From the NCBI GenBank assembly GCA_001664505.1, contig CP011806.1:2969263-3033262 (forward strand): a stretch of 64,000 bases of DNA, given 5' to 3'. A program made the position numbers and the translations under genes. Shown piece after piece: positions 52,135-55,369 of the stretch. Within the stretch, counting starts at the first letter, position 1. Each line of letters begins with the position of its first letter. Origin of the DNA: Acidobacteria bacterium Mor1. GTDB taxonomy: Bacteria > Acidobacteriota > Polarisedimenticolia > Polarisedimenticolales > Polarisedimenticolaceae. The notes beneath the pieces were generated by a model. That model made no database searches and was not told the origin of the DNA. It saw only the letters and a program-made list of their open reading frames with translations.

Positions 52135-52331
52135 CGGCGTGGAGGATAGCCGCCTTCGCCGTCACCGCCAACCCATACATCCACGACAATGGGGACGCAC
52201 CAATTCTCCGTTGAATGGGCAGGAGTTGCACGGTACTTTTCCTCGTGAAGTGGGCACATCTGGGTTATGCGACCAAGCGCCGCGGACCTATCGAGCCGGG
52301 CACCTCGTGGCCGGTTGCTTGGGAGACTGTG

Positions 52332-52586
52332 ATGGCTGAACCGAACAAAAACGATAACGAGCGCTCCCATGCAAGCCGTGGCCGCCGTGCGCTGATCAAG
52401 GGCGGCCTCGTCGCCGTGCCTGCGATGATCACCCTTCGCGGACGCCCGCTCTTCGCCGGTACCGGCGGTGGCACTCTCGGGGACTACACCGACTACACCC
52501 CCGGGCAGCACAACGAACCCGAGCGGAACCCCTACGACGATCCGTCGATCGGCGATCCGAACGCACCGGATACCTTCAGCCGGTAG
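52332..52586 (+). CDS. Small Tat-like leader peptide, candidate substrate of the HPr-rel-A cassette
   Basis: 84-residue peptide. The N-terminus is charged and includes a twin-arginine-like leader (RGRRALIKGGLVAVPAMITL). Next come RGRPLFA and a Gly/Asp/Tyr/Pro-rich tail (GTGGGTLGDYTDYTPG) with many acidic residues and several Ser/Thr/Tyr. GGGAG lies seven bases before the ATG. It directly precedes PqqD-like, HprK-like and nucleotidyltransferase genes, and small proteins of this type occur beside such cassettes. Thus it is probably the modified precursor; nothing shows the final product. It is divergent from the MutS-like gene across 197 bases. Confidence 0.7.
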   Translation: MAEPNKNDNERSHASRGRRALIKGGLVAVPAMITLRGRPLFAGTGGGTLGDYTDYTPGQHNEPERNPYDDPSIGDPNAPDTFSR

Positions 52587-52637
52587 CGAAGACCGTTACC
52601 CCTGACCTCGGACCACATCGATCCATCTCTCGCCTGG

Positions 52638-52919
52638 GTGTTGCGCGCCGATGCCGACCTGCACTGGCGCGCATGGGACGACCAGTACGTCGTGTTCCAT
52701 CCCCCTTCAGGCGATACTCATCTGCTGAATGAAGCGGCGGCTCGCCTGTTGCGGCGGCTGCACGAAGGACCGGCAACCATCGCCGACCTGGTGGCTGCCG
52801 TCGAGGGCATCGGCGACGAGGCGGTGCCGGACATGCCGAAACGTGTGGCAGGCTACCTGCTGTGGTTTGACGACCTGGGACTGATCGAAGCCGCCGATGC
52901 ACCTTCAACAGCTAGCTGA
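52638..52919 (+). CDS. PqqD-like protein of the HPr-rel-A type cassette
   Basis: 93-residue winged-helix-like protein of the PqqD family, which binds leader peptides of modified precursors. The core VLRADADLHWRAWDDQYVVF, HPPSGDTHLLNEAAARLLRRL and GYLLWFDDLGLIEAA matches the HPr-rel-A PqqD subfamily. The annotated start is GTG at 52638; the same frame continues upstream to the peptide's TAG stop with a CTG at 52602, so the true N-terminus may be longer. The end overlaps the kinase gene by 23 bases, showing translational coupling. Confidence 0.8.
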   Translation: MLRADADLHWRAWDDQYVVFHPPSGDTHLLNEAAARLLRRLHEGPATIADLVAAVEGIGDEAVPDMPKRVAGYLLWFDDLGLIEAADAPSTAS

Positions 52920-53802
52920 AGCGGATCTCCGCGCGAAGCTCACCGGACCGGGCCTGCCGCTGCGAGTCGGCCCCTTCGCCATCCGGCTGGGCACCGACCT
53001 GCCTGAGCTGGTCGAACCGCTGCGGCTGCTCTACGCCGACTACGAGATCGCCGACGACCCGATCGAGGACTTTCACGTCCGCGCGGCGCCGGCCCCCGGG
53101 TTCTCCCGGTTCGGCTGGGCCATCACTACTGTCGACGGGCGGCCGCGGGCCAAGCCCTTCCGGCGCAGCGTCGCGCTGCCGATGCTGGAGTGGACCCTCA
53201 ACTGGTGCGTCTTCACCCGGCCGCAGCACTGCCTGGTGCTCCACGCCGCGGTGGTGGAACGGGAAGGCCGGGCGTTGATCCTCTCGGGTGCCGCCGGCGC
53301 GGGCAAGAGCACCCTGGCCACCGCACTGGCCGTGCGGGGCTGGCGGCTGCTGTCCGACGAGGTCGCGACCTTCCCCGGCACCCGCCGGGACGAGCGGAGC
53401 CGCCGGGTGATTCCGGTGCCCCTGCCGATCTCCCTCAAGAACGAATCGATCCAACGGATGCGCGCCTTCGGCCCCGAACTGACCATGGGGCCCGCCGTGC
53501 CCGGGACGCGCAAGGGCACCGTGGCTCACGTGAGCCCGCCGGGCGATGCGTTGCCCCGCAGCAGTGAACCTGCCGAGCCGGTCGGGATCATCTTCCCGCG
53601 CTACACGCCGGGGGCCGGTTGTCAGTTTGAAGAGGTCCCTCGGGGCGAGACGCTGATGCGGCTGGCCGACGAGTCCTTCAACTACAGCGTGCTCGGCCTC
53701 GACGGTTTCGAAACGTTGGCCGAAGCGGTCGAGCCCTGCCGCTGCATCGACCTGATCTACGACGATCTGGAAACCGCCCTGACGCGGCTGGGGGAGCTAT
53801 GA
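52897..53802 (+). CDS. HprK-related kinase A
   Basis: 301-residue P-loop protein of the HprK-related kinase A family (HPr kinase/phosphorylase-like fold). It lacks the N-terminal HPr-kinase domain of true HprK and is not linked to a PTS. Walker A is LSGAAGAGKSTLATAL near residue 130, followed by the LLSDEVATFPG segment. A beta-rich N-terminus and a C-terminal part (EAVEPCRCIDLIYDDLE) complete it. It overlaps both neighbours and is translated with them. It likely phosphorylates a peptide or another protein in the cassette; the target is not known. Confidence 0.87.
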   Translation: MHLQQLAEADLRAKLTGPGLPLRVGPFAIRLGTDLPELVEPLRLLYADYEIADDPIEDFHVRAAPAPGFSRFGWAITTVDGRPRAKPFRRSVALPMLEWTLNWCVFTRPQHCLVLHAAVVEREGRALILSGAAGAGKSTLATALAVRGWRLLSDEVATFPGTRRDERSRRVIPVPLPISLKNESIQRMRAFGPELTMGPAVPGTRKGTVAHVSPPGDALPRSSEPAEPVGIIFPRYTPGAGCQFEEVPRGETLMRLADESFNYSVLGLDGFETLAEAVEPCRCIDLIYDDLETALTRLGEL

Positions 53803-54902
53803 GCGGCAGCAACCCACAGCCGCTGTTGCTGCGGGCGCTGCTCGATCCGCAGTCGGTTGCGGAGTTCGAACCGGCGGACTGGAATCGTCTGTTGCCCACG
53901 GCGCGTGCCGCCGGGTTGCTGCCGCGGTTGGCCAACCTGCTCGGCGAAGCGCCGCAGGGAACGCCGCTTCCCGGGAAGGTCCGGGACCACCTGCGCGGCG
54001 CGACGAACATGGCGGCGCAACACGAACGGATCGTGCGCTGGGAGGTCGACCGGGTGCTCCACGCCCTGGCCGGCCTCGGCATCGACGTGGTGCTGCTCAA
54101 GGGTGCGGCCTACCTGATGGCCGGCCTGCCTGCGTCCCGCGGACGCCTGGTTTCCGACGTCGACATCATGGTGCCCAAGGCCCGGATCGAACAGGTCGAA
54201 CAGGCGCTGCTGGAAGAGGGTTGGGAGGCCACCAAGCTCGACCCCTACGACCAGCGCTACTACCGGCAGTGGATGCACGAGCTGCCGCCGCTGCAGCACG
54301 GCGCCCGGCAGTCGAGCCTCGATGTGCACCACACGATCCTCCCCGAGTCAGGCCGGCTGCATCCCGATCCGGAGAAGCTGTTCGCGTCGGCGCGCCCCCT
54401 CGAGTTGCCGGGGCTACGGGTGCTCTGCCCCGAGGACATGGTCTTGCACTCGGCGGCGCACCTGTTCCAGGACGGCGATCTCGCCGGTGGTTTGCGCGAC
54501 CTCTGCGATCTGGATGCGCTGATGCGCGACTTCGCCGCCGGCGACGGGGAGTTCTGGGAGCGCCTGGCCCGGCGCGCGGTGGAGATGGATCTGTCCCGCC
54601 CCGCCTTCTATGCCCTGCGCCACACCTCGCGTATCCTCGCCACGCCGGTTCCCGGCGGGCTGCTTGAACAATCGGCGGCATGGGGTCCGCCGGCGCCGGT
54701 GCGGGCGCTGATGGACCGGCTGGTCGACCGGGCGCTCTTGGGCGATCTCGACCGCGCGTCGAGCCGCTCCCAGGCCGCGCGGCTGGCGCTCTACGTGCGG
54801 TCCCACTATCTGCGCATGCCGCCGGGCCTCCTGGTGCAGCACCTGTCGCGCAAGGCATGGCAGAGCTTCGAGAAGGACGACCCCGAGCGGGACGCGGCGT
54901 AG
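53799..54902 (+). CDS. Nucleotidyltransferase family protein (NTP_transf_5-like)
   Basis: 367-residue protein with a Pol-beta-type nucleotidyltransferase core: VVLLKGAAYLMAGLPASRGR followed by the metal-binding VSDVDIMVPK, then LDVHHTILPE and CPEDMVLHSAAHLFQDGDL. This matches the PF14907-like family, which accompanies HprK-related kinases. The C-terminus is helical. Its ATG overlaps the kinase stop by four bases (ATGA). A role in transferring a nucleotide onto the peptide or a partner is inferred. Last gene of the cassette. Confidence 0.85.
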   Translation: MSGSNPQPLLLRALLDPQSVAEFEPADWNRLLPTARAAGLLPRLANLLGEAPQGTPLPGKVRDHLRGATNMAAQHERIVRWEVDRVLHALAGLGIDVVLLKGAAYLMAGLPASRGRLVSDVDIMVPKARIEQVEQALLEEGWEATKLDPYDQRYYRQWMHELPPLQHGARQSSLDVHHTILPESGRLHPDPEKLFASARPLELPGLRVLCPEDMVLHSAAHLFQDGDLAGGLRDLCDLDALMRDFAAGDGEFWERLARRAVEMDLSRPAFYALRHTSRILATPVPGGLLEQSAAWGPPAPVRALMDRLVDRALLGDLDRASSRSQAARLALYVRSHYLRMPPGLLVQHLSRKAWQSFEKDDPERDAA

Positions 54903-54955
54903 CCCGGTAGGATCGAGACCCAGCTGGGCTCGGATTGCAGGAACGAGGAGACCGC

Positions 54956-55369
54956 ATGGAACAACCGGTACGCTACTGCCCCAACCCGGACTGCCCCGAG
55001 GAGCAGGACAGCGACTCCCCGTCGGAGTACCGCGCCGACATCGAACGCTGTCCGGGTTGCGAAACCGAGTTGGTCGAGCAGCTTCCCTGGGATTCCGCCG
55101 CCGATCCGCCGGCCGCACCTGCCGAGGCGCCGCCCAGCGACTACGAAACCTTCGTACCGGTGCGCAGCGTGCCCAACCAGGCGCTGATCCCCCTGGCCAA
55201 GTCGATCCTGCAGGCGGCGGGGATCCGCTACTACGTGCGCAACGAGCGGCTGGGTTCGATGATCCCGCTACCGGCGGTGGGGGTGTTCTCGCCGTTCCGC
55301 TTCCCCGAGGTCACCGTGGAGCCCGGCCGGGCCGACGAGGCCCGGGAGCTGCTGGCCGACCTGGAGTAA
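54956..55369 (+). CDS. DUF2007-like protein with N-terminal zinc ribbon
   Basis: 137-residue small cytoplasmic protein. Residues 1-40 carry two CxxC-like pairs (YCPNPDCP and RCPGCETELV) that would hold a zinc ion. Residues ~65-137 match DUF2007 (putative prokaryotic signal-transducing domain), with ETFVPVRSVPNQALIPLAKS, YYVRNERLG and the closing EPGRADEARELLADLE. GAGGAG is six bases before the ATG. Function unknown. Confidence 0.78.
   Translation: MEQPVRYCPNPDCPEEQDSDSPSEYRADIERCPGCETELVEQLPWDSAADPPAAPAEAPPSDYETFVPVRSVPNQALIPLAKSILQAAGIRYYVRNERLGSMIPLPAVGVFSPFRFPEVTVEPGRADEARELLADLE

Follow-up and report, generated by a model that had tools for sequence, protein, structure and literature searches.

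A stretch of 64,000 nucleotides from the genome of Acidobacteria bacterium Mor1 (termed here the window) carries four closely spaced genes of the type that NCBIfam calls the HPr-rel-A system, and they raise a simple question: on what do the enzymes of this system act? Such enzymes occur at no fewer than 587 loci, yet no family model describes their substrate, and the open-access literature searched has no name for the system. The answer suggested here is that they act on the leader-bearing peptide at the head of the cassette, which would make it the hitherto unrecognised substrate of a bacterial system that is widespread but has gone unstudied. The cassette is accordingly read as a small peptide-modification pathway, the core of which, namely the RRE-guided phosphorylation of an exported peptide, is given a probability of roughly 0.6.

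The preliminary description of this DNA had assigned coordinates to peptide, PqqD-like, kinase and nucleotidyltransferase reading frames, all four of which are borne out (Table 1); the kinase and the PqqD-family protein both score over the cut-offs of the HPr-rel-A models, and none of the three enzymes has a match in a library of defence systems. It had also described the genes as packed with overlaps, which holds for the PqqD and kinase genes (23 nt, 52897-52919) and for the kinase and nucleotidyltransferase genes (ATGA, 53799-53802) but not for the peptide and PqqD reading frames, which are separated by 51 nt if the GTG at 52638 is taken as the PqqD start. The true PqqD start probably lies upstream of this GTG (the CTG at 52602 is one candidate), because the N-terminal strand (AWVL) of the predicted structure begins just 5' of it, with high confidence. 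The peptide's reading frame likewise stays open 5' to position 52215, where there is another ATG; the start at 52332 is favoured by a GGGAG 6 nt before it and by the conserved leader, which begins shortly after. Directly 3' of the cassette lies a gene for a DUF2007 protein with a zinc-ribbon-like start (54935-55369, forward strand).

Table 1. Features of the cassette, in coordinates of the window.
Feature	Coordinates	Strand	Basis
Precursor peptide gene, 84 aa	52332..52586	+	ORF; leader profile E = 5.9e-8; own-genome match 1.8e-10
Conserved leader RRALIKGGLVAVPAMITLRGRPLFA, residues 18-42	52383..52457	+	Alignment; Tat-like twin arginine, TL motif, putative signal-peptidase site
I33-T34-L35, proposed PqqD-docking strand at TL motif	52428..52436	+	Sole strand predicted in peptide part
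Acidic tail (core) GTGGGTLGDYTDYT...TFSR	52458..52583	+	TGGGTLGDY[TS] part common with paralogue elsewhere in genome
PqqD-family peptide-binding protein (predicted RRE)	52638..52919	+	TIGR04353, 66.6 bits (cut-off 35); PF05402; AlphaFold model against TbiB1, B1, PqqD
HprK-related kinase A	52897..53802	+	TIGR04352, 280.3 bits (cut-off 200); profile matches solved HPr kinase weakly
Kinase catalytic region: H116, P-loop G134-T139, D154-E155	53242..53361	+	At least 95% conserved in 80 kinases
PF14907 nucleotidyltransferase-like protein	53799..54902	+	PF14907, 216 bits (cut-off 31); K101-G102, D120, D122, D175 conserved

Homologous cassettes were sought by a profile scan of genome contigs based on a six-sequence kinase alignment; at least 587 relatives were confirmed and the best 80 loci were analysed, most of them from beta- and gammaproteobacteria and the others from Phycisphaerae/Planctomycetes, alphaproteobacteria and one member of the Polarisedimenticolaceae. 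The preliminary description had proposed that a conserved peptide be looked for beside such cassettes, and this check was run: an adjoining ORF with the leader pattern RRx[FL]xK...TLxSRPxxA is present at 77 of the 80 loci, nearly always directly upstream of the PqqD gene (at L045 it lies downstream of the cassette). No leader was found at the remaining three loci, L043 (where a transposase-like ORF stands instead), L046 and L066. The suggestion that the peptide is a plausible substrate thus gains support. Because the upstream ORFs were initially chosen by a twin-arginine-plus-hydrophobic rule, which is satisfied at 10.6% of random positions, the occurrence of RRx[FLIMW] in 80 of 81 leader sequences is no independent evidence; the TLxSRP segment, in contrast, is conserved without having been a selection criterion, and within it the T of the TL motif is nearly invariant.

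To the extent that the leader can be recognised from other loci, the window's peptide is recognised beyond chance: a profile of 47 non-redundant leaders, from which the window was excluded, ranks it first among the window's 566 ORFs (E = 5.9e-8, the next ORF scoring 0.69). When the profile was tested by split halves, 46 of 47 held-out loci matched at the expected place and there was no true off-site match in 6698 ORFs (five off-site listings trace to kinase ORFs whose start had been placed early). Within the window's phylum, the kinase exceeds its cut-off in 4 of 297 sampled genomes, and leader matches below 1e-6 occur in just three, each of them among those four. Neither the peptide itself (against Pfam and NCBIfam) nor 53 leader-bearing proteins (against Pfam, NCBIfam and PDB sequences) gave any relevant match. 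That the leader-bearing peptide is the substrate of the cassette is judged very probable.

The leader's form invites a more ordinary interpretation, namely that it is a conventional Tat signal on a secreted protein that goes unmodified, and that the enzymes are merely co-transcribed and act on a sugar, an HPr-like protein or some other peptide. The twin-arginine-like character noted in the preliminary description is indeed confirmed by the RRx[FL]xK pattern, the hydrophobic stretch and the AxA-like site, all of which fit such a signal, and the adjacency of some loci to XrtA/PEP-CTERM polysaccharide genes would fit enzymes that act elsewhere. An ordinary Tat signal, however, should yield several matches per genome, whereas exactly one (E ≤ 1e-5) is found in 27 of 30 cassette-bearing genomes, its coordinates being those of the cassette's own leader in the six of these 27 that were compared; since scoring was confined to the 150 best candidates of each genome, additional copies with weaker scores may have escaped. 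The association of leader and cassette moreover spans several phyla, and in one type of tail two serines that follow the leader are invariant, so that this interpretation is considered unlikely. Rather improbable, too, is the idea that the hydrophobic segment serves as an uncleaved membrane anchor and the tail as a regulatory domain whose phosphorylation the cell senses: although arginines flank the segment and the n-region is acidic, an AxA-like site (by a loose pattern) is present in 81 of 81 leaders, and some tails contain conserved Cys and Trp, which would be in keeping with secreted proteins.

A tail conserved across all cassettes, which the preliminary description had suggested looking for, was not found among the homologous peptides: tails are hypervariable, with lengths between 9 and about 212 aa, and it is the leader rather than the tail that is conserved. 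About half of the tails, however, form a single type, recognisable by a TPGYW-like motif. Among 41 aligned sequences of this type (median pairwise identity 32%), Ser53 and Ser57 are invariant (41/41) and Ser61 nearly so (38/41), and all three sit directly after the leader and ahead of a folded domain; the invariant serines suggest the kinase's target within this tail type. For this domain the prediction is good (pLDDT exceeds 90 for much of the stretches 70-90 and 145-220), and a fold search of the PDB returned no match for it; L101:6986-7648 and its relatives, for example, encode this well-predicted secreted domain, with its TPGYW motif and with no Pfam, NCBIfam or PDB-fold match. The window's own tail, which is short and acidic, is of another type and lacks the invariant-serine motif; no residue is conserved across tail types, and the Thr and Ser sites of the window's tail are conserved only with one paralogue. 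Such hypervariability in both length and sequence also counts against consumption of the peptide for the making of a small molecule, as PqqA is consumed for PQQ. That possibility is raised by the presence of a PqqD-family protein, yet no radical-SAM or other cofactor-forming enzyme was recognised among the frequent neighbours (the survey covered the most frequent neighbour clusters of the 80 loci, with ten neighbour types identified by profile), and it appears highly improbable.

The paralogue just mentioned, at 1.83 Mb of the window's genome (leader at C1:1830046-1830132; leader-profile E = 5.9e-10), is the second gene there that bears the leader. It matches the window's peptide by BLASTP at 58% over 67 aa and has the core TGGGTLGDY[ST]xY in common with it. 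The gene is solitary: within the region C1:1822000-1840000 no kinase or PqqD gene was noticed nearby, and its neighbours, named by eye, are a PepT-like and an SCO1/CRTAC1-like ORF. The same genome encodes a second HprK-like protein (379 aa; C1, about 4624840-4625058; L002, L041), which scores 45 bits against TIGR04352, below the cut-off, and whose setting resembles an exopolysaccharide cluster, with sugar transferase-like and Wzz-like ORFs (likewise named by eye).

Structural prediction bears on how the peptide might be recognised. The best PDB matches of the PqqD-like protein's AlphaFold model, as found by Foldseek, are the lasso RREs TbiB1 and B1, both solved with leader, and PqqD, with TbiB1 ranking first; on this model the protein is an RRE. 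Because the peptide and PqqD ORFs share a frame, the two could be modelled as a single chain by translating through the TAG codon, using an alignment of 28 rows that included 27 similar in-frame loci; this is a modelling device, and no readthrough is claimed. Within its peptide part, the fused model has a single strand, I33-T34-L35, at the TL motif, with a pLDDT of about 64. Since the peptide part shows no other predicted strand, the partner of this one should lie in the PqqD sheet, an assignment made with low confidence. As to the enzymes, the window's kinase retains the catalytic residues given in Table 1, and those listed there for the PF14907 protein are at least 95% conserved in 67 proteins and present in the window's copy; a comparison of that protein with PDB sequences gave no match, and a search of viral contigs with the kinase gave no relatives.

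From these observations the following mechanism may be proposed. The N-terminal leader of the precursor would have two roles: it would direct export in the manner of a Tat signal, and it would be the element to which, on the models, the PqqD-like RRE docks. The docked precursor would then be presented to the HprK-related kinase, which would phosphorylate one or more Ser or Thr residues of the tail, a step that is reasonably probable by analogy with the kinases discussed below. For the subsequent attachment of a further group (a hexose or a nucleotide) to the phosphate by the PF14907 enzyme, which rests on a similar analogy, the odds are about even. Export of the product by the Tat pathway is likely, to judge from the leader's form, which combines the twin-arginine signal RRx[FL]xK with a hydrophobic region and a signal-peptidase site at which the leader may be cleaved; TatC is encoded in the window's genome (PF00902, 214.9 bits). 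Because no dedicated peptidase or transporter was recognised among the most frequent neighbour clusters of the 80 loci, the housekeeping Tat machinery and a housekeeping signal peptidase are proposed for these last steps.

More generally, the cassette shares two features with RRE-dependent RiPP systems, in that a protein of predicted RRE fold stands beside a precursor with a conserved leader (77/80 loci). It may tentatively be regarded, at somewhat less than even odds, as representing an RRE-guided, phosphate-modified class that is widespread in Gram-negative phyla, whose leader doubles as RRE dock and Tat signal, whose cargo extends from 9-residue tails to whole folded domains without known fold match, and for which the genome of the window would encode one or more substrates in trans. 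If docking and Tat export do share one segment, this would be a new way of coupling peptide modification to secretion. Because the leader supplies a candidate substrate, a docking motif and, for one tail type, candidate serines, the system is directly testable.

Comparison with known systems makes the chemistry less blank than the preliminary description implied in calling the product essentially uncharacterised, although the product itself is still a predicted one. No paper on HPr-rel-A, TIGR04352 or TIGR04353 in the relevant sense was found in the open-access literature; the NCBIfam models name the enzymes only, and the 53 leader-bearing partners fall outside all Pfam and NCBIfam models. Precedents do exist for the enzymes: kinases of the paeninodin and pseudomycoidin kind phosphorylate Ser, and the nucleotidyltransferase-like PsmN adds hexoses to the phosphate (PMC9266682). 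The likeness to these clusters, which extends to an HprK-like kinase, a nucleotidyltransferase-like enzyme and a B1-type RRE, might indicate a lasso peptide pathway. This reading is disfavoured to the point of being barely credible, however: neither the cassette nor the scanned flanking proteins include a macrolactam synthetase, the B2 leader peptidase family PF13471 is absent from the whole genome, and the YxxP/WxxP leader motif ([YW]xxP) occurs in 0 of 81 leaders, which places the cassette, by leader motif, outside both lasso tailoring and the linear polyphosphorylated peptides (LPP).

The latter, described in 2026 and reported as restricted to Bacillota, have an RRE and an NTP transferase in the same cluster as LppK, which polyphosphorylates Ser3, whereas LppN displayed no visible activity (PMC13381572). 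Like the cassette, they combine a discrete RRE, an HprK-like kinase and an NTP transferase without a macrolactam synthetase, and their precursors likewise pair a conserved N-terminus with a highly variable C-terminus. LPP clusters lie near capsule genes, and some homologous cassettes similarly lie near polysaccharide loci. Three of the cassettes (L100, L075 and L098) are near XrtA/PEP-CTERM exopolysaccharide genes (TIGR03027, TIGR02917, TIGR03013), a link that does not apply to the window's genome because exosortase (PF09721) is absent from it. There are also differences: the LPP leader reads YxxPxVLxHQxIxFETxxS, whereas that of the cassette is of Tat type with TLxSRP; LPP clusters possess a dedicated SipW-like peptidase and an MsbA-like exporter, neither of which was recognised among the cassette's frequent neighbours; and LPP occur in Bacillota, whereas the cassette occurs in Pseudomonadota, Planctomycetota and others. 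An RRE-linked precursor that carries an export signal is also found in the DUF2282 precursors with DUF2063-associated RREs (PMC12710340), where, however, the signal is of Sec type and the enzyme set is another. By analogy, the best reading of the cassette is a RiPP-like pathway related to those of paeninodin, pseudomycoidin and LPP, from which its Tat-type leader sets it apart.
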